From Alphaproteobacteria bacterium (GTDB lineage: Bacteria > Pseudomonadota > Alphaproteobacteria > Rhizobiales > Rhizobiaceae): a DNA stretch of 33,216 nt. The stretch covers positions 1-33,216 of the forward strand of contig JAHJUC010000698.1 in NCBI GenBank assembly GCA_018829385.1. The letters are read 5' to 3'. The notes below the pieces were generated by a model that was not told where the DNA came from, did no database searches, and was given only the letters and a program-made list of their open reading frames with translations. The first letter of the stretch is position 1; each line of letters begins with the position of its first letter. The position numbers and the translations under genes were made by a program. Of this stretch, positions 15,550-32,868 are shown piece by piece.

Positions 15550-17040
15550 GTGACCACTCTGACCCTATCGCAGCTGGAGACCCATCTCTGGCGTGCGGCG
15601 GACATTCTGCGCGGATCGATCGATTCCGGTGATTACAAGCATTACATTTTTGGTCTCTTGTTCTTCAAGCGGCTCTCGGATGTCTGGCAGGAGGAGTATG
15701 AGGAGCGGCTGGCGCGCTATGGCGACGCGGAGATCGCCGCCGACCCCGAGGAGCATCGCTTCGACATCCCCAAGGGGCATTTCTGGGGCGATGTGCGCAA
15801 GCACCCCACCGACATCGGCACGCATCTGAACAGGGCGTTCCACTTTATCGAAGACGCGAACATGAAGCTGCGCGGCGTCTTCCAGGATGTCGATTTCAAC
15901 AACAAGGAGCGCTTTCCCGATGCGATGCTGGAAAAGCTGCTGCAGCATTTCGAGACCTAACGACTGCGCAAATCCGATGTCGAGCCGGATGTGCTCGGGC
16001 AGGCATATGAATACCTGATCGCGCAGTTTGCCGACGATGCCGGCAAGAAGGGCGGCGAGTTCTACACGCCGAAGATGGTCGTGCGGCTGATCGTCGAGTG
16101 CCTGAAGCCGGGAGAAGGCATGTCGATCTACGACCCGACCTGCGGTTCGGGCGGCATGCTGCTCGAGGCCGTGCATCACCTGGAGCGCCAGGGCAAGAAC
16201 CCGAAGAGCCTGTCGCTGTTCGGCCAGGAGAAGAATCTCAACACCTGGGCCATCTGCCAGATGAACCTGTTTCTGCACGACATCGACGATGCGAAAGTCG
16301 CGCGCGGCGATACGCGGCTGGAACCGAAGCACCTGACAGGCGAGGGTGTGAAGGCGATCCGCACCTTCGACCGGGTGCTGGCCAACCCGCCGTTCTCACT
16401 GAAGAGCTGGGGCCATGATGTCTGGAGCCAGGGCGATGCCTATGGCCGCGACCGCTATGGCTGCCCGCCGAAGAGCTACGGCGATCTCGCCTTCGTGCAG
16501 CACATGGTGGCGAGCCTGAAGGAAGACGGAGTCTGCGGCGTGGTGCTGCCACACGGCGTGCTGTTTCGCGGCGGCGCGGAAGGCCGGATCCGCGAGGGGC
16601 TGATCCGTGACGACCTGGTCGAGGCGGTGATCGGGTTGGCGCCCAACCTGTTCTATGGCGCCGGCATTCCGGCCTGCATCCTGATCCTGCGCAAAACGAA
16701 GCCGGCAGTGCACAAGGGCAGGATCCTGATCGTCAACGGAGCGGAGCAGTTCGTCGAAGGCAAGGCGCAGAACCATCTGTCGGAGGCCAATGTCGCCACG
16801 CTGGCAAAGGCCTATGGCGACTTTACTGACACCGACCGGTTGGCGCGGGTGGTTCCTGTCAGCGAGATCGAGGCGAACGACATCAATCTCAACATCAGCC
16901 GCTATGTGCATCTGAGCGAGGAGGCCGAAGAGGTCGATGTCGCGGCGGAAGTGGAGAAGCTGGTCGCGCTTCAGGCTGAGCGTGACGCGGCGGAAGCGCG
17001 GATGATGGGCTTTCTGCGGGAGCTTGGTTATGTCGCGTGA
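15550..17040 (+). pseudogene. hsdM: type I restriction-modification methyltransferase subunit HsdM, split by an in-frame TAA at 15958-15960
   Basis: 15550-15957 encodes the N-terminal helical domain (LETHLWRAADILRGSIDSGDYKHYIFGLLFFKRLSDVW...LLQHFET); the same frame continues RLRKSDVEPDVLGQAYEYLIAQFADDAGKKGGEFYTPKMVV, DPTCGSGGMLLEA, LANPPFSLKSWG. Confidence 0.9.
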
Positions 17041-23046: not shown

Positions 23047-23646
23047 TTATGTCCTACCCAATTCGTTAGTCTTGCGTGTCGCCTTCCGCGACCTGCGTAT
23101 CTCTTTCTCAATTGCGGATTTTACATCCATGAAGTTGTCCTTCGTGCAGAATACGGCGTCCAGAACCAGCCGATTGCCCCGCAGCAAAACAGTATGTCTC
23201 TTCTGATCGACTTCGAGCGATCGAATTTCGTGCCACTCGGTGAACCGGGAGGAATTTGCCCGAGCCAATAGCCCGGCTCCGGCGACGGTTGGGTTGCGCG
23301 CCAGCGCGCCCAGAACAATCGCCAAGGTCCGGCCGAATTTTGCGCGCCTGTCAACGACACGGGATCTGACACCGTCCGCGTCGACTTCGAAACTCACCGT
23401 CATGCGATTGTTGAAAAACAGCACGACAGCGGCGAGCACGAGAACCAACAGAATTGCCGAAACCCCGAAGATCGCCCGAAAAATGGCTCCCAGTTGATCC
23501 AAACTCCCTTCGAACCAAGCCAGCCCGATCAACAGCAACGTTAGAATTGCGAGCGGGATCAAGATCACGGCTGCAAGCTGCCTGACAATGATCGGCGTCG
23601 TCAGGAGAGGCACGTTGACCGTCCAGGCTATCGGGTCTGACATCAT
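23047..23646 (-). CDS. two-TM membrane protein of unknown function
   Basis: MMSDPIAWTVNVPLL... with hydrophobic segments LAAVILIPLAILTLLLIGLAWF and IFGVSAILLVLVLAAVVLFF and a soluble C-terminal domain; track ORF extends to 23712. Confidence 0.65.
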   Translation of the reverse strand: MMSDPIAWTVNVPLLTTPIIVRQLAAVILIPLAILTLLLIGLAWFEGSLDQLGAIFRAIFGVSAILLVLVLAAVVLFFNNRMTVSFEVDADGVRSRVVDRRAKFGRTLAIVLGALARNPTVAGAGLLARANSSRFTEWHEIRSLEVDQKRHTVLLRGNRLVLDAVFCTKDNFMDVKSAIEKEIRRSRKATRKTNELGRT

Positions 23647-23798
23647 CCAAATCCCTGTTTCAGTAGGGGCTGTATAAACCTCGAAATCGGCTCCTGACTT
23701 GACTTCGGTCAATGATCGGGCAGCGCAAAGCTGTTGTCATCATGCCTTGAAAGAAGCCTTTCGCACGCCGGAAGGCAGGGGAAAGAGATATCATTTTC

Positions 23799-26700
23799 AT
23801 GAGTTTGCGGCAGATTGCATTACGTTTGGCGGGCTCGTTGGCCACGTCAGGTCGGCGGGCCATGGTGCTTGCGCTCCTTGCGCTCCTTGCGGTCTGTCTC
23901 GTCATCGTGGTGCCGAACAAGTCGTTTGCCGAGGACGAGGCGGAGCAAAAGGTCTACCAGGAAATGCATTCGGAGGTGAAAACCGCCTTCGACAACGTCA
24001 AGGACAAATTCAACAAGCTTAACGACAAAATCAATTCCATCCGAAGCTCTGTGACCAACTGGCGTGAAGCGACAACCAAACGCAGAGAGAACGCTTCGAT
24101 CAAGGATATCAACGATCTTTTCGAAGGCGAACTGGTCGCCGGGCGCGACGAATTGCTCAAGCAGGTGTTCAGCGAGGAGTTTGTTGAGCAGATGAAGAAG
24201 GTCGAGGCGAAGCTCGGCATCCAGGTCGGTATCCCCGATACCGAGAAACTGCTCAAATTGCTTGTCGACAAGCAGGGTCGCGAAAAACTCTACGGCTATA
24301 TGTATCAGCTCAGCGGCTACGAGCGGAACCTGCGCAAAAAGGGGGTTTTCAAGGAACTCGACAAATTGAAAGACCGTTTCGAGAAGGGGTCGGGGTATAT
24401 CAGCAAGGTCGGCGACATGCTGGACTTTGTCGCCCTGTTCGATCCCTCCAATGTCGATCCGGACTCGCCGATCAGCCGCCTGAAGGCCATAGGCAACGTG
24501 CTTGGGGCAATGAAGGACATCACCGAGGCCATTCCAGGTTTCGGCCATCTTCTCGATTTCTACATCGATGCGACCGAACAGTTCACCCAGGCGCTCGAAG
24601 AGCTGAACACCAAGATCCTCGATGCTCGCGACGGGTCGATCTGCGGTCAGCTCGGTGTGCTGTCGGCAGAGCTGAAGGCGCTCGATGAACACATCAAGGG
24701 CGGGGCCTGCATCAATTTCTATACCAATTACGAGCTGCAGTCGCTGCTCAAGCCGGTGCTCGTCTGGACCCATGCCGAAAGCAATGAGACATTCTTCTAC
24801 GACAAGGACCATGATGTTGCCGCCTATCTGACATCGGGCAATCAGGGAGATCTGCTCGATCCGTTCCGCGCGCTCAAGGCAAGCAAGACCGCCGCCAACA
24901 GCAAGCGGGCTAGCCCGGCCGTGTTCATGGCGCTTGCGCGCGTCGTCACCCGGTCGAAAGCGGTCGTGGCAAAGCCTGAATGTGATGACTACGCGAGGCT
25001 TTTTTCCGACAGGAATTTTCGTGCGATCTTGCGCGAGGTCGATGTCCTCGACAATTTAGGTGCAATCAGTGCGCCGAGCGGAACGGTGCTCCAGCCAGTG
25101 ATCACAAGTCCCGCGGAAATTACAGGGTTGTGCCTTTACGATCCGCGCATGCGTCGGCTGATGCGTGACCTTGCGGACCGTTATCGCCATCTAGCCGCCG
25201 TAACCATCGATGTCTATCCGCTTGACCGGAAACAATCGCCGGATGTGAACGACGTCCGCATCGACGGGATCCCGCTGGTTTTCGGCGAGGCGGGAGCCGG
25301 CAAGAGGCGGGTGGCAGAATTTACCCGGATCGAGGCGCTGGTCGATACGCGCCACCCGATGGACGTCGAAGTGGATGCCGAAGGTTTCAAGCCGGCGCAG
25401 AAGTCACTGAGCCTCTCTGCCAAGCGCAGGTATGCGACGATCTACATGGAACGCGAAGAGGCCGAGCAGGCTGTGCCGGCAGCAGATGCCGATGCTGAGG
25501 CGGATGCCGGCGGAAGGGAAGGCGCCGGTGACATGACGGATACCGACGTCGATCAGCGGCCGGTCGAGGTTGAACCTGCCGCAAAGCAGACTGCACCGGC
25601 GCCGATTGCTCCGGTCGCGGTGGACAAGCTGCAGCCGGTTAGCCCGCAATCAGTCCCGCAAGAGCCGCAACAGACTTCTGCCCAGCAGGCAACCGCACCT
25701 GATGCGCCCGCACAGCCCGTGGAGCCGGCTGGCGATGTGCCTAGTCCCGAGACGGCTGGGGATGTTCCCTCCGCAGCGGTCGGGGCCGAAACAAGTGTGG
25801 ATGCCGGAACGGATGACGCCGGTGATGTAGACGCGCCGACGGAGGCGGCCAAGGCGGGCAGCAAAGAGACCGGCACAGATCAAGCCCCCTCTTCAGCCGA
25901 CGCGCAGGAGCAGCCTTCAACGGACCAGGCCGATGACGGTCAGGCGGACGAGGCCGGCAAGGAGGTTGCCGGGGCCGGCAATGAGGCGTCGCCATCGGCT
26001 CCCGGATCCGACAATATTGTCAGCCTCACGATTGCGCGTGGCCGGGTCTATCTTGGCGAAACCGTTCAGATCTCGACGCCTTACCGGGGCGAGGACATCG
26101 CCCGTGGAACCGATGAGTGCGATCCCAACAGCACCAATCCGTTCACCGGCTGCGAGGTCACTCCGTCAGGAAGCAATGGAGCCAGCGTGTATATCGGACG
26201 GGCCGACGATACCGAAGATCTCGGTCCGGCCCGGCCGTTACCAAGCCTTGAATATATCTGGCACGGCAGCGAGGGCGTCACCTTCGAGCCGACGACGTCA
26301 AACGATGGCCGGACATTTGCGACCTTCGAGCGCGTTGGTGAAATGAAGATCTGGGCCCAGGTGGTCAAGCAGGGTTCGACCATCGCCGAGACCGAGCAGC
26401 AGACCGTAAATGTCCTGGCGCCGTCGCTTTCGATCAGGTTCGATCCGGCTTCGGGGGCTAATGCGGGATCGAAGATCAAGGCGACGGTCGTCGCGACCCC
26501 GATGGTCTTGCCGAAATACTGGACTGTCCGGTGGCTGGAGCCGCCGACCGCCGACCGGGAGGAGCTCAACGGCAACGGCTCCGAAATCCGCTTTTCCGGC
26601 GCGGCGGGCAAGCCTGTGACGCTCGAAGCCACGGCCAATGTCGCCTTCTACGGCGACGAGATCGGGTCGGTCACCGGCAGCTACAGTCTGGAGGCTGGAA

Positions 26701-28658
26701 GTCTCGATGTCACGGCGAGATCGCGTGGGCCGCGGCCGCAAATCTGGGACCGAGCCAGCGGCGGTCTGGTCGATCTGCCCGACGGGCAATATGTCGATGG
26801 ACAGGAGATCGACTTGCGCGCCGAGTTCGCGGGCGGCGATGCGCCAGGCGAAGTCCGGTGGCGCTGGTCGGTCAATGAGGGCACCTCTATCTCAAACGAG
26901 ATCTCGCAGACCCCGACCGTCTCGCGGGCTCAAGCGGGGCAGATCGAGGCCAAGGTGATAGCCACGGACAAGAACGGCGTCGAGCTCGCGTCGGGATCGA
27001 TCAGCCTGAGCGTGCAGGCGCAAGGGCAGCCACCCGCCGACAAACCCGGGTCGGCCGCGTCCAAACCCGAACCTGTTCCGGATGTGACCGATACACCGGA
27101 CCGCCAACCTTTGACGCAGAAGCAGGACCCCGCCCGTCCGATACCGGCTCCCGCCACACCAGCGTCCACCGCGAAACAACCCGTCACGGCGGCGCCTGCC
27201 AGTCCCACCATATCGCCGTCACCGGCAGAGCCCGCTACCCCACCGCGACCGACGCCATCCTCAACGCCGCAGCCCGCCCCGCCGCAACCTGCACCGCCGC
27301 CGGCAGCTGTGGCATGCGCGATCGGTTCGCCGCAATATACGGCCGCTGTGGAGTTGTGGACCCGGGGCCTATCCATGATCTCGGCAGGCAATGCAGAGGT
27401 CGGCCTCGGGGCATTGGAGGCAAGTCTGGTCGTCTGTCCCGATCCAACGCGTCAAACCCAGTTCACGGCCCTGCGCCAGCAGCTCAGCAGGGCAGGGGCG
27501 ACAGCGTCTCAGCCGCCCTTGCCAGCCGCCGATTGCAGCTCCGGCGGCAATGATTATGCCGAAGCGATGAACAACTGGCAGCAGGGTGTTTCCCTGCTGG
27601 GCGCCGGCGACCATCAGGCAGGCGTCGTGGCTTTGGAGCGGAGCCTCGGCCAATGTCCCGATCCGCAACGCCAGTCCCAGCTCGACCGGTTGAAGGCGCA
27701 GCTTGAAGCGGCGGCCGCTCCGCAGTCCGGGGATACCGGTGCCTGCCTGCCGGGCGGCGACCGGTATGCATCTGCCCAGGATGCCTGGCGGCGCGGCATC
27801 GCGCTGATCGGCAGCGGTGAAAGCGGTGCGGGCGTAGCGCTTCTGGAGATGAGCGTTGGGGAATGTCCCGACGACACGCGCCAGTCCCAGCTCGAGGCCC
27901 TCAGGCAGCAATTGAACATCTCCGAGGAAAATGGCGATGAGGTTGCAGGAGACGGTGGCGAACGGGGCGCACCGACCAGCATCGAGGACGCGGTCAAGCA
28001 GGCCGCGAAGGCCTGCGAACCAGGTGGTGCGCGCTACGCGGAGGCCGAAGCAAGCTGGATCCGGGGTAGCGATCTGCTTGGGGCAGGTGATCGGACAGCG
28101 GGGCTGGAAGCGCTACGCAAAAGCGTCTCGATCTGTGCTGATCCCGACCGGGTTGCCAATCTGGAGCAGGTGAGTGTGCTGATCGAAGAAGCCATCGTGA
28201 GGGAACGGCAGGCTCAGGCCGATGCCCAGCGCCAGGCCGAAGAGGCGGCAAGGCAGGCCGCAGATGTGGAGCGCACGCCACCACAGCCACCACAGCCCGT
28301 CGAGCCTCAGTCGATGGAGGCGCCGTCAAAGCCGCAATCGACACGCTATTCAGGCTCAGTTGAAGGCGCGCCGCAATGCAGGCTTTCCTTCGAATTTTCA
28401 AATGGACAGGTCAGTGGCCAGATCACCGGCACCTATGAAGGCGACCAGATCAATCTGGCTTTCCAGGGCACTGCCGACGGCAACCAATTCAGCGTTCCGT
28501 TGAGCGGTTACCTTATCGATTCCTCTGGCCGTTTCGGGCGCGTTTCGATCACGGGGACGGTTAGCGGGACCTTTTCCAACGGATTTTTCACCGGCAATTG
28601 GACCGCCGGAAACAACTATCAGTCCGATCGAGGCGGCTGGATCGCCAGCCCGGAATAG
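23799..28658 (+). CDS. 1619-aa exported multidomain protein (helical N-terminus, Pro/Ala/Asp-rich linker, Ig-like beta region, four Cys-paired repeats, C-terminal beta domain)
   Basis: Single uninterrupted ORF; N-terminal hydrophobic segment MVLALLALLAVCLVIVVPNKSFAED; domain order read from the translation. Confidence 0.9.
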   Translation: MSLRQIALRLAGSLATSGRRAMVLALLALLAVCLVIVVPNKSFAEDEAEQKVYQEMHSEVKTAFDNVKDKFNKLNDKINSIRSSVTNWREATTKRRENASIKDINDLFEGELVAGRDELLKQVFSEEFVEQMKKVEAKLGIQVGIPDTEKLLKLLVDKQGREKLYGYMYQLSGYERNLRKKGVFKELDKLKDRFEKGSGYISKVGDMLDFVALFDPSNVDPDSPISRLKAIGNVLGAMKDITEAIPGFGHLLDFYIDATEQFTQALEELNTKILDARDGSICGQLGVLSAELKALDEHIKGGACINFYTNYELQSLLKPVLVWTHAESNETFFYDKDHDVAAYLTSGNQGDLLDPFRALKASKTAANSKRASPAVFMALARVVTRSKAVVAKPECDDYARLFSDRNFRAILREVDVLDNLGAISAPSGTVLQPVITSPAEITGLCLYDPRMRRLMRDLADRYRHLAAVTIDVYPLDRKQSPDVNDVRIDGIPLVFGEAGAGKRRVAEFTRIEALVDTRHPMDVEVDAEGFKPAQKSLSLSAKRRYATIYMEREEAEQAVPAADADAEADAGGREGAGDMTDTDVDQRPVEVEPAAKQTAPAPIAPVAVDKLQPVSPQSVPQEPQQTSAQQATAPDAPAQPVEPAGDVPSPETAGDVPSAAVGAETSVDAGTDDAGDVDAPTEAAKAGSKETGTDQAPSSADAQEQPSTDQADDGQADEAGKEVAGAGNEASPSAPGSDNIVSLTIARGRVYLGETVQISTPYRGEDIARGTDECDPNSTNPFTGCEVTPSGSNGASVYIGRADDTEDLGPARPLPSLEYIWHGSEGVTFEPTTSNDGRTFATFERVGEMKIWAQVVKQGSTIAETEQQTVNVLAPSLSIRFDPASGANAGSKIKATVVATPMVLPKYWTVRWLEPPTADREELNGNGSEIRFSGAAGKPVTLEATANVAFYGDEIGSVTGSYSLEAGSLDVTARSRGPRPQIWDRASGGLVDLPDGQYVDGQEIDLRAEFAGGDAPGEVRWRWSVNEGTSISNEISQTPTVSRAQAGQIEAKVIATDKNGVELASGSISLSVQAQGQPPADKPGSAASKPEPVPDVTDTPDRQPLTQKQDPARPIPAPATPASTAKQPVTAAPASPTISPSPAEPATPPRPTPSSTPQPAPPQPAPPPAAVACAIGSPQYTAAVELWTRGLSMISAGNAEVGLGALEASLVVCPDPTRQTQFTALRQQLSRAGATASQPPLPAADCSSGGNDYAEAMNNWQQGVSLLGAGDHQAGVVALERSLGQCPDPQRQSQLDRLKAQLEAAAAPQSGDTGACLPGGDRYASAQDAWRRGIALIGSGESGAGVALLEMSVGECPDDTRQSQLEALRQQLNISEENGDEVAGDGGERGAPTSIEDAVKQAAKACEPGGARYAEAEASWIRGSDLLGAGDRTAGLEALRKSVSICADPDRVANLEQVSVLIEEAIVRERQAQADAQRQAEEAARQAADVERTPPQPPQPVEPQSMEAPSKPQSTRYSGSVEGAPQCRLSFEFSNGQVSGQITGTYEGDQINLAFQGTADGNQFSVPLSGYLIDSSGRFGRVSITGTVSGTFSNGFFTGNWTAGNNYQSDRGGWIASPE
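27315..28197 (+). repeat. four tandem protein repeats inside the 1619-aa protein
   Basis: Repeat starts at Cys codons 27315, 27534, 27744, 28014; pattern C.(P/S)GG..YA.A...W..G..L(L/I)G(A/S)G(D/E)..AG...LE.S...CPD..RQSQL..L..QL. Confidence 0.88.
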
Positions 28659-28663
28659 GAGAG

Positions 28664-29365
28664 ATGCACATGCCAAGATTAAATCCGCTCGCGCTGTCGT
28701 TGCTTCTCATGCTGGGCCTGCTTGCCGGCCCCGCAAACGCCATGGATCTTGGCAAAACGGGCATTGGCCTCAATCCGCCGGCGCGGGGTTGGAAACTCGA
28801 AGATCACGATGATGCGGCTCTGAAAGTCTGGCATCTGCGCGCCGATACCTGGGACCCGGCGCCGAAGGAGTCCGGTTTAATCTCGGTGACCGTCACCTTT
28901 CTGGACGGCGATCCGTGGCCTGACATCGCGGCGATGCGCGATCAGGCCGCCGACATTGTTGCTGGCCAGCTTATGACTGCTGTCACCGCCCGCACGCCAT
29001 TTGAACTCGTCAGCGGCCGTTTCGAGATAGCGGGTGCGGATTTCGAGGGCGGGCTCGATCTGGTCTCGGAAGGCGACAAGCCTGTCAGCGCCCGGCTGCT
29101 TCTGATCCGCACCCGCAGCGGATTTCTGATGATCACGGCTTTCTCGGTGCTGCCGATGAGGGAAAAGCCGTTCTCCGCGCTGTTTGGAGAAACCGGTATT
29201 CTGACTGCTTATGGTCCGGGGGCGGCAGGATTGAATGGAACGCCCGCCGCGGCTGAGGCTTCCGTGCCTGCTCCGGCTGATCCTGCCGCCAATCCAGCAG
29301 CTATCGAGGATCTGCTCAAACAGATGCAGCAACAGTTCCAGCCGTCAGCGGAAACTGGAAATTGA
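28664..29365 (+). CDS. exported protein of unknown function
   Basis: 233 aa; signal peptide LALSLLLMLGLLAGPANAM; AGGAGAG ribosome-binding site immediately after the preceding stop. Confidence 0.75.
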   Translation: MHMPRLNPLALSLLLMLGLLAGPANAMDLGKTGIGLNPPARGWKLEDHDDAALKVWHLRADTWDPAPKESGLISVTVTFLDGDPWPDIAAMRDQAADIVAGQLMTAVTARTPFELVSGRFEIAGADFEGGLDLVSEGDKPVSARLLLIRTRSGFLMITAFSVLPMREKPFSALFGETGILTAYGPGAAGLNGTPAAAEASVPAPADPAANPAAIEDLLKQMQQQFQPSAETGN

Positions 29366-29376
29366 GGAAGGCGAAG

Positions 29377-29865
29377 ATGACACGTTTCGCAACCATGACA
29401 CTCGTTGCATTCGCCATTCTGCAGGCCATGCTCTTATCAGTAACGCCGACGCTTGCCGACTATGTCGGCAATCTCAATCCCAACGGGGATAACTACCTTA
29501 CGCTGCGCCAATATGCGACCGCGAAATCGCGAGAGATCAGCCGCATGGGGCCCGGAACGATTGTCGAAATTTTGGATGCGGATGGCGACTGGTTCTACAT
29601 CCAAACCCAGGACGGGCGCATCGGCTGGGCGCATAGCAACTACATTCTTCCCGGATTGCCCGGCGGCAATACGCCGCGACCTGACAATGCCGCGCCGTTT
29701 GGTGTGGTTAACGATGAAGCCGGAGATGTGCCCGTTGAGGACTATCAGGAACCGGCCGTTGCCGGCGGCATCGCTTCAGGTGCCGCTAACGTTGGAGGTG
29801 TTGAGTTCGACTGGCTCGAAGGACACATGACCCAGTTCCATGATCCGTTGAAATACTACCCGTGA
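29377..29865 (+). CDS. exported SH3-domain (SH3b-like) protein
   Basis: 162 aa; signal peptide then LTLRQYATAKSREISRMGPGTIVEILDADGDWFYIQTQDGRIGWAHSNYI. Confidence 0.8.
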   Translation: MTRFATMTLVAFAILQAMLLSVTPTLADYVGNLNPNGDNYLTLRQYATAKSREISRMGPGTIVEILDADGDWFYIQTQDGRIGWAHSNYILPGLPGGNTPRPDNAAPFGVVNDEAGDVPVEDYQEPAVAGGIASGAANVGGVEFDWLEGHMTQFHDPLKYYP

Positions 29866-29879
29866 GCGAGGGACACACC

Positions 29880-30890
29880 ATGAATATCCGCGTCTTGGCA
29901 TGGGCAGTCTGCATGGCCGCCGTCTCAGTCCCTATGGCGATGGCCAATGACACCTCCGCCCGTCTCGCCAGCGGCGGACTGGTCTTCGGCAAGCAGCTTG
30001 GCGTGGTCATGCAATCGGAAGATCTTTACATTTCTCCCGACATGATCCGCGTGCGGTATGTGTTCCACAACGAAACGGCAACGGATCTCGAGACGATCGT
30101 TGCCTTCCCGTTGCCGGAGACCGCGCCTTCCGGCGACATCGGCGGAGGTTATCATTTCGGCGATGGCGTCACGGCCAATTTCGTGGATTTCAAGACATGG
30201 GCCGGCGGAACGCCGGTTGTCACCCAAGTCGAGCAGAAAGCACTGGCGCTCGGCCTCGACCGGACGGAGATCCTGAACCGTCTCGGTGTGCCGATCGGGT
30301 CCTACATTCCGCCGACGGATCCGCGGTCTGCCTTTCACGGGCTTTCGCGCCTGAGCGAGGCAGAGTGGGGCGAGCTTGCCGCGCTGGGCTTGCTCAGGAT
30401 CGATCCGCAGGGACATCCCTCGCCAGGGTGGACGGTGGCGACGACATTCTACTGGACCCAAGTCTTTCCGGCCGGCGAGGACACGGTGATCGAGCATCAA
30501 TATCGACCGCTGATCGGGTCGAGCTTCGATGCACCCATCAGCGGCGATCCGGACGATCAGGACGCGGCCCGCGCCTCGATCAGGTTTTGCATCTCGGAAC
30601 AGGACAAGAAAGCGCTGCGTGAGCTTCATGACGGCAAGATCGACGGCAGAACTTACACCGCGTTTTCCGAAGAACTTGGCTACATCCTCAAGACTGCAGC
30701 GAACTGGAGCGGCGCGATCCGGGATTTTCATCTCGTCATTGAGGCGCGGGAACCGATTGATTTCGTCTTCGCCTGTCTTCCGGGGCTCAAGCGCATCTCT
30801 CCTTCGCGGCTTGAGCTGAGTGAGGCTCAATTCTGGCCTTTTTCGGATCTGGACGTGCTTTTCGTGATCTCGAAGCCCCTGGACAACTGA
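29880..30890 (+). CDS. exported DUF4424-like protein
   Basis: MNIRVLAWAVCMAAVSVPMAMANDTSARLASGGLVFGKQLGVVMQSEDLYISPDMIRVRYVFHNETATDLETIVAFPLPE. Confidence 0.8.
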   Translation: MNIRVLAWAVCMAAVSVPMAMANDTSARLASGGLVFGKQLGVVMQSEDLYISPDMIRVRYVFHNETATDLETIVAFPLPETAPSGDIGGGYHFGDGVTANFVDFKTWAGGTPVVTQVEQKALALGLDRTEILNRLGVPIGSYIPPTDPRSAFHGLSRLSEAEWGELAALGLLRIDPQGHPSPGWTVATTFYWTQVFPAGEDTVIEHQYRPLIGSSFDAPISGDPDDQDAARASIRFCISEQDKKALRELHDGKIDGRTYTAFSEELGYILKTAANWSGAIRDFHLVIEAREPIDFVFACLPGLKRISPSRLELSEAQFWPFSDLDVLFVISKPLDN

Positions 30891-30911
30891 CCCTTCCCAA
30901 AGGAGACCCGC

Positions 30912-31394
30912 ATGCGTGTTGCAACTCTCTCATTGATCTTGATATCACTTGTGACTGCCGGCACCGCTGCGGCCATGGATTGGCGGCACTATCAGAATGC
31001 CCGGTTCGGAACCAGCGCCGATGTCCCCACCGCTTTCGCTCCTGCGCCACCGCCGGAAAACGGTGACGGCCAGCGATTTGACGGACCCAACGGCACGATT
31101 ACCGTCTACGGCGCTTTCGATTTCACCGGCAGTTTCTCTGGCTACCGGAGCTTTCTCAAAGACACGCTTGAGAGCGAGGGCTGGAAGCTGACCTACACGC
31201 CGTCGGGCGAAAACTGGTTTGTGCTCTCGGGCGTAAACCAGGGACGCATCCTCTATCAGCGCGTCGAACGTCCAGCCGGCTGCAATGGCGACATCCTTCA
31301 CCACATTGAATTCCGCTATCCCGCCCGCGATGGGATGGAGTGGGAATCAATCGTCGAGCGCGGCGCAAAATCTCTTGATGGGCCGTGTGGTTGA
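30912..31394 (+). CDS. small exported protein of unknown function
   Basis: 160 aa; signal peptide MRVATLSLILISLVTAGTAAAMD; ribosome-binding site AAAGGAG upstream; same strand, short gap. Confidence 0.75.
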   Translation: MRVATLSLILISLVTAGTAAAMDWRHYQNARFGTSADVPTAFAPAPPPENGDGQRFDGPNGTITVYGAFDFTGSFSGYRSFLKDTLESEGWKLTYTPSGENWFVLSGVNQGRILYQRVERPAGCNGDILHHIEFRYPARDGMEWESIVERGAKSLDGPCG

Positions 31395-31644: not shown

Positions 31645-32868
31645 ATGACGATCTATACGGTCCATCTCCCGCGGGTAAAAACCGGCGACTTTGTTCCGCT
31701 TGATTTCAAGCGCACAGACTATCAGGCAAAACAGAAGAGATTTCTTGGTCGATATGGGCTCAAGCCTGAAATCAGCTTTGACGATTTCACAACCAGTGCA
31801 GTCATCGACTGGCTGGATGTGACCTTTGGAACATTGGTAATCACACAAGCCAGATGGATCAGCGAGCATATCAAAACCCTCACGGGGGAGGCTGTTTCCG
31901 TTCGCGAGATCCAGCCTTATGACTTCCCTCGCTTCACCGCACGGTTTCAACAACCATCAATGCCGCTGGTGAAGAAGGCGCTTGCGGCGGTCGAAGGGCG
32001 CTTCAGCTTGGCGGCCGGACCGACGATCTCCGGTCTTGAGGTCAGCATCGACTTCACGCCGAAGATCCCGAGTGATCAAGCCAGGGCAAGAATGGTGGGG
32101 GTGCTGGCGCGACATTTGTTGCCAGGCAGGAACGTCCTAATGAGAACGGTCGATCGCCCACGCTTCACATGGGGGAACTCACTTGAAGATACAAAGCACC
32201 TACTCGGGAAACCGGACGATGGGCCTGATCATACACAACCCTTGCCATGGAGGCGGGTAAGAGTGCCTGCGGACTATGCCAGACTCTTCACATCCGGTGA
32301 CCAGATGCCGTATGTCGACGCGACGGTCTATTTCGGATCCGAGAAGTCAGCCTGTCTTTGGCGGATCATGGACAAGGTGGTCGATCAGCAAAACCGTCAA
32401 ACTGGGACCTCCAAGGCTTTGGACGACCATGAGAAGCGAGCGCGCATCGAAGTTTCGCTCGGGGTAGCTGAGATTCGTCGCCTGAGTATCACGTCTCTCG
32501 ATGACCTACGACGATTCCGCTTCACCAATTTGCAGAAGGAGTTCTTCGCGTTCTACCTTCCAACCTTCGCGGCGACCGACGCTGTGCCCGTCCTGAATTA
32601 TAGAGCCGTGAAGGAAATGCGGAGCCAGGAACGTGTCCGGAAATTTCTGAAAGCCGGCGTCGTTGGATTGCAGGCCATGGACCATGCGTGGGAAACGAGG
32701 CGAGCCTCCAACCGTGCGGACATCGCGAAGGTGTTGAGGTCACGTGGGCAACCGGTAGCTCGTTTCAAGGCGGGCAAGGGGAAGCACGGGACGCTTCTGG
32801 CTTATCGGGAACTGAACAAGCGAGTCGAGACTGCGCTCAGGCATTTGGCCGAGGGTGTTGGCTCGTAG
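31645..32868 (+). CDS. Rep_trans-like (replication initiation factor-like) protein
   Basis: 407 aa; AVIDWLDVTFGTL, GLEVSIDFTPK, YVDATVYFGSEKSACLWRIMDKVVDQQNR, KRARIEVSLG resemble the layout of Rep_trans replication initiators; family call is by eye. Confidence 0.5.
   Translation: MTIYTVHLPRVKTGDFVPLDFKRTDYQAKQKRFLGRYGLKPEISFDDFTTSAVIDWLDVTFGTLVITQARWISEHIKTLTGEAVSVREIQPYDFPRFTARFQQPSMPLVKKALAAVEGRFSLAAGPTISGLEVSIDFTPKIPSDQARARMVGVLARHLLPGRNVLMRTVDRPRFTWGNSLEDTKHLLGKPDDGPDHTQPLPWRRVRVPADYARLFTSGDQMPYVDATVYFGSEKSACLWRIMDKVVDQQNRQTGTSKALDDHEKRARIEVSLGVAEIRRLSITSLDDLRRFRFTNLQKEFFAFYLPTFAATDAVPVLNYRAVKEMRSQERVRKFLKAGVVGLQAMDHAWETRRASNRADIAKVLRSRGQPVARFKAGKGKHGTLLAYRELNKRVETALRHLAEGVGS

Follow-up and report, generated by a model that had tools for sequence, protein, structure and literature searches.

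An apparently mobile cassette of exported-protein genes in Hoeflea and the recurrent neighbours of DUF4424

The window analysed here is a 33,216-nucleotide contig from an alphaproteobacterial genome that is 76% complete and whose genus-mates include Hoeflea alexandrii. Between positions 23799 and 31394 of its plus strand are five consecutive genes (B to F), each with a product that bears an export signal at its N-terminus; a gene for a membrane protein (A) diverges from them. This arrangement raises the questions of whether the genes belong together as a unit and, if so, what a set of exported proteins that includes one of 1619 residues might do in the cell envelope. The features are as follows.

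23047–23646, minus strand: A, divergent membrane protein of 198–199 aa (open reading frame and hydropathy; Pfam matches sub-threshold only)
23647–23798: A-B intergenic region, presumed divergent promoter (alignment of four genomes)
23799–28658, plus strand: B, exported multidomain protein of 1619 aa (open reading frame, weak profile matches, predicted structures, hydropathy)
28664–29365, plus strand: C, exported protein of 233 aa with no family (open reading frame, Pfam, NCBIfam), found only with B
29377–29865, plus strand: D, exported protein of 162 aa with one bacterial SH3 domain at residues 41–90 (SH3_3, PF08239)
29862–30890, plus strand: E, exported DUF4424 protein of 342 aa (PF14415), a divergent paralogue and an optional part
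30912–31394, plus strand: F, exported single-domain protein of 160 aa with the motif YxNxRFG...NGDGxRF...ITVYG

The initial annotation had pointed to five co-directional exported genes with tiny gaps and to a divergent membrane protein at 23.0–23.6 kb, and both descriptions hold. The intergenic distances are 5 bp (B-C), 11 bp (C-D), −4 bp (D-E, where the reading frames overlap at 29862–29865) and 21 bp (E-F), and ribosome-binding sequences, each graded good, lie upstream of C (TAGGAGAG, which overlaps the B stop codon), D (GAGGAAGG) and F (AAAGGAGA). As called by eye and hydropathy, all five products begin with a hydrophobic signal segment closing at an A-x-A-like site. Gene A starts with an ATG at either 23646 or 23643, and its product has several hydrophobic segments, with a hydrophobic N-terminal half and a soluble C-terminal half. 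The earlier SH3b-like and DUF4424-like assignments are also borne out: D matches PF08239 with 43.1 bits (curated cut-off 27; E 4.7e-11), and E, which has a signal segment, matches PF14415 over the whole domain (1–306 of 306) with 256.5 bits (curated cut-off 27; E 4.3e-76). There is no family match above cut-off in Pfam or NCBIfam for A, B, C or F, the large protein has no enzyme family in either database, in agreement with the initial annotation, which recognised no enzyme domain in it, and no HExxH motif or peptidase family was found in A–F. When the B DNA is shuffled 200 times, no open stretch exceeds 338 codons, and dN/dS is 0.05–0.31 for every cassette gene relative to its relatives, indicating purifying selection; the B reading frame is therefore not a chance occurrence. 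No sigma-70-type match in the A-B intergenic region exceeds the chance level. A segment within it at 23690–23740 (GGTCAATGATCGG..AGCGCAAAGCTG) is kept in four of four genomes and is a candidate regulatory site.

That these genes form a unit is indicated by comparison with H. alexandrii DSM 16655 (L002), H. alexandrii G21627-S1 (L003) and the Hoeflea MAG M_23 (L004; genome G139), a set of four genomes including the window's own, of which two are MAGs or incomplete; most alignments have four rows. The segment A–F (~8.5 kb) is present in the same order in L002 and L003 at ~90% DNA identity (tblastn, blastn), and the block shared by the window and L003 extends from ~110 bp beyond the 3' end of A to ~20 bp past F, with different flanks. 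The A product is 87%, 91% and 66% identical in L002, L003 and L004 respectively, and its gene is divergent from B in all three. In L004 the genes A, B and C are kept at ~76% DNA identity and E is absent, and the counterpart of D is a single 479-aa gene encoding, in this order, an SH3 domain, an F-type domain and a SPOR-like end (E 0.0044 for SPOR, which is under the cut-off). Window D and this fused protein have in common the tail FDWLEGHM.QFH.P, at the C-terminus of D, and window D stops just short of the point matching the start of the F domain in L004. In a tree of F domains, window F clusters with a copy from genome G097 and not with the L004 domain (support 98/95), and thus the F part was probably exchanged and not merely split. 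The DUF4424 gene, being missing from L004, is not core to the cassette. By these comparisons the block A–F is a real unit, inherited and moved together in accessory DNA.

The unit is rare in our searches, which are samples of the family and class and not exhaustive. The N-terminal part of B is present in three of 398 Rhizobiaceae genomes, all of one genus, and C is present in 4 of 18 Hoeflea genomes. There are no relatives of B in other genera among the 398 genomes and no credible ones among ~390–395 genomes of the class, where the weak matches include a generic TPR protein; none were found in plasmids or in viral contigs (queried, for the latter, with the N-terminal part), nor do A, B, C, D and F match any PHROG family, as a phage-encoded module might. 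The proposal of an undescribed envelope system therefore stands in part: the genes are co-inherited, envelope-directed and unmatched by any characterised system, but the neighbourhood is kept in only a few Hoeflea genomes rather than broadly conserved, and one of its two suggested anchors, the DUF4424 gene, is dispensable in one relative.

In both H. alexandrii genomes the cassette lies ~1–4 kb from a tRNA-Val(gac) gene, after which there is an FGase gene.

L002 21411–21485: tRNA-Val(gac), with the variable region on one side
L003 18273–18347: tRNA-Val(gac), with the variable region on one side

The corresponding site in G139 is empty (L134 17737–18208, with glgP and the tRNA gene 0.4 kb apart) and the cassette is on another contig; the window contig ends before any such site, the tRNA-Val of its genome being on a separate contig. 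Other Hoeflea genomes differ in spacing or cargo at this site, and in L002 the variable region comes to no border on its left within 40 kb. From these positions the cassette is accessory DNA, located at two chromosomal places. We note that tRNA-Val(gac) in Hoeflea has a variable region on one side, often with glgP beyond, and that a 407-aa open reading frame just past the cassette (window 31645–32868) has a weak match to a replication initiation factor (PF02486, below cut-off).

Such a location invites the explanation that the cassette is envelope-acting defence or competition cargo in variable DNA, shielding the cell surface from phage, predators or neighbours. Its proximity to tRNA-Val in L002 and L003, its patchy occurrence in 4 of 18 Hoeflea genomes, and the matching hsdMSR (type I restriction-modification) genes adjoining it in the window and L002 are in keeping with this role. 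However, restriction genes are not next to the cassette in L003 or L004, the L004 flanks are metabolic genes, and A, B, C, D and F have no match among PADLOC anti-phage families. We consider a defensive role unlikely, although it retains an appreciable minority chance. The window hsdM gene (15550–17040) has one in-frame stop near 15958 where the L002 frame is open, a difference that could reflect a genuine lesion or a fault in the assembly.

The large protein B is a mosaic of regions.

Residues 1–44: signal peptide
Residues 45 to about 420: helical part
Residues about 465–550: beta domain
Residues about 555–770: acidic/Pro-rich linker
Residues about 780–1075: Ig/PKD-like region (PKD E 0.0016, below cut-off)
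Residues about 1080–1170: Pro-rich linker
Residues 1173 to about 1470: four TPR-like repeats (TPR_9 E 0.0007, below curated cut-off)
Residues about 1525–1619: C-terminal beta domain

The matches to distant domains in B all fall below curated cut-offs. Each of the four repeats has one pair of cysteines at a spacing of exactly 40 residues (1173/1213, 1246/1286, 1316/1356 and 1406/1446), conserved among the relatives, and this regularity would fit an oxidising compartment. The repeats are modelled as TPR-like helices (pLDDT about 65–85), and a fold search with this model gives TPR proteins as the best PDB matches, including NlpI, NlpI-MepS and Prc-NlpI, although these are weak (best E 1.8e-3). 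The N-terminal 560 residues have a model too poor for use (pLDDT 38). A 569-aa protein at L068 was considered as a homologue of B, as was an L068 membrane protein for A, and neither is supported. In H. alexandrii G21627-S1 the region on the left side of the cassette (L003 3833–8768) encodes an exported protein of F5/8 type (NADase_transloc) and also has a pair of overlapping frames that resemble one broken large exported repeat protein with a B-like layout, the homology not being significant; a second B-like gene at L003 4570–8765 is suggestive in layout but was rejected (hhalign E 0.16, BLASTP 0.38).

With its Ig/PKD-like region, Pro-rich linkers and repeats, B could be a long surface protein of a matrix or adhesin module, with C–F aiding its export or anchoring, and an RTX/cadherin-type protein is present among the variable neighbours in L003. 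This we regard as distinctly improbable: the B signal peptide is of the Sec type, no RTX repeats or adhesin family are matched in Pfam or NCBIfam, and no outer-membrane barrel or anchor family was matched.

The F-type domain is common in Rhizobiaceae, being found in 83 of 249 genomes. The window's own genome encodes a further F-domain protein (L074 8089–9942) composed of a zinc ribbon, a membrane segment and an F domain, and the division/cell-wall cluster of G097 has, between murB and ddl, a gene (L069 9479–9976) whose F-type product shares 47% identity with window F. A general tie of F to division clusters was rejected, as it holds at just 1 of 30 F loci examined, and homology of C either to F or to the C-terminus of the L074 protein is unsupported.

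The best new lead comes from the neighbours of DUF4424. In a 2013 study reporting the structure of Legionella lpg2210 (PDB 4g2a), DUF4424 genes were without recurrent neighbours, and a catalytic partner was proposed because of the likeness between the fold, a beta-sandwich, and the leukotriene A4 hydrolase N-domain (PMC3848476). Of 200 Rhizobiaceae genomes, 72 have DUF4424, most of them a single copy, and in several loci examined this usual copy adjoins thyA and folA. Other copies are placed differently: in G030 DUF4424 overlaps the next gene, which encodes a 793-aa fusion of SH3 and F domains; in G157 an SH3 gene is followed by DUF4424; and in four Rhizobium strains a DUF4424 gene carried on a plasmid has immediately after it a gene for an exported protein of 610–640 aa, in which PG_binding_1 is combined with an F-type domain (E 1e-10 to 1e-12 with a local profile) and with DUF4344, a putative metallopeptidase domain (HESGH). 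Three of these pairs were examined in full, and the fourth (11515TR) was placed by coordinates only.

L144 5001–8004: Rhizobium plasmid DUF4424 and metallopeptidase pair
L146 5007–8000: Rhizobium plasmid DUF4424 and metallopeptidase pair
L147 5001–7920: Rhizobium plasmid DUF4424 and metallopeptidase pair

Every full-length plasmid copy of the three-domain protein adjoins DUF4424. Such a partner is absent beside DUF4424 in the plasmid copies of R. sullae, A. tumefaciens and Methylobacterium, and at the usual thyA-folA copy. Non-canonical DUF4424 is thus repeatedly beside a wall-binding domain and an F domain; a single origin of the partnered copies is compatible with the DUF4424 tree but not demonstrated by it (p-AU 0.20). 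The other SH3-subfamily matches inspected were caspase loci or unrelated. That the cassette is a passenger operon, whose exported genes travel jointly without acting jointly, might be suggested by the lack of E and the replaced F part in L004 and by the wide occurrence of F and DUF4424 families on their own, but seems a poor prospect given that A-B-C-D order is held at ~76% DNA identity in a different chromosomal place and that SH3, DUF4424 and F come together again in differing layouts elsewhere.

Our preferred reading, to which we give somewhat less than an even chance, is that the cassette is accessory and transferable and adds a periplasmic, cell-wall-associated protein assembly. The products of B–F would be exported by Sec and cleaved, with B as the scaffold, its TPR-like repeats and Ig-like region offering binding surfaces in a manner analogous to NlpI with wall hydrolases, and the Cys pair in each repeat could form a disulfide. 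The SH3 domain of D would tether the assembly to peptidoglycan, E and F could be substrate-binding or adaptor modules, and A may be an inner-membrane partner or regulator. Because A–F has no enzyme motif, we suppose that the cassette recruits or regulates a host enzyme, either a peptidase of the periplasm or a wall hydrolase, whose gene lies at another place in the chromosome. The unity of the A–F block, the A-B-C order and SH3 plus F content kept in L004, purifying selection, the Pfam matches of D and E, the TPR-like repeats of B with their weak fold matches and regular Cys pairs, the recurrent association in G030, G157 and the four Rhizobium strains, and the catalytic partner predicted for DUF4424 (PMC3848476) all argue for such an assembly. 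Against it, any activity must lie outside the cassette, DUF4424 is dispensable in L004, and other DUF4424 genes are unpartnered. Bacterial SH3 domains take various ligands, the N-terminal 560 residues of B are without a usable model, and the DUF4424 tree leaves both one and several origins of the partnered copies admissible. A more specific version, which we think rather unlikely, takes DUF4424 to be the detached subunit that binds substrate for periplasmic metallopeptidases which are split and tethered to the wall. On this view the Hoeflea version would have given up its built-in peptidase in favour of a giant TPR/Ig scaffold that recruits an enzyme of the host.

What is new here is B and C, which are outside every described family, the seemingly mobile unit A–F, a clear target for deletion and test, and the recurrent DUF4424 neighbourhood, in contrast to the 2013 report of none. 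The combination of DUF4424 with wall-binding and F domains (and, on plasmids, with the DUF4344 metallopeptidase) offers a concrete test of the catalytic-partner prediction, and the putative metallopeptidase beside Rhizobium plasmid DUF4424 suggests agreement with the partner that the fold had led one to expect.

Among known systems, the caspase (C14)-SH3-OmpA loci of Rhizobiaceae are similar in having exported SH3 proteins within a gene cluster, but caspase and OmpA domains are missing from the cassette and the neighbours are unrelated. E resembles the DUF4424 family (PF14415; lpg2210, 4g2a) in its whole-domain match and export, and departs from it in having 31–36% identity to other copies, no YARHG domain, and a position between SH3 and F genes. 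The Rhizobium plasmid pair shares with the cassette a DUF4424 gene beside a wall-binding domain and an F domain, although the pair has an HESGH metallopeptidase where the Hoeflea cassette has B and C. NlpI is a periplasmic TPR adaptor of wall hydrolases, and although B is ~5 times longer, has no clear lipoprotein signal, carries Ig-like and other domains, and has TPR sequence matches below cut-off, it is like the NlpI-type adaptors in its exported TPR-like repeats and in its fold matches to NlpI-MepS and Prc-NlpI.
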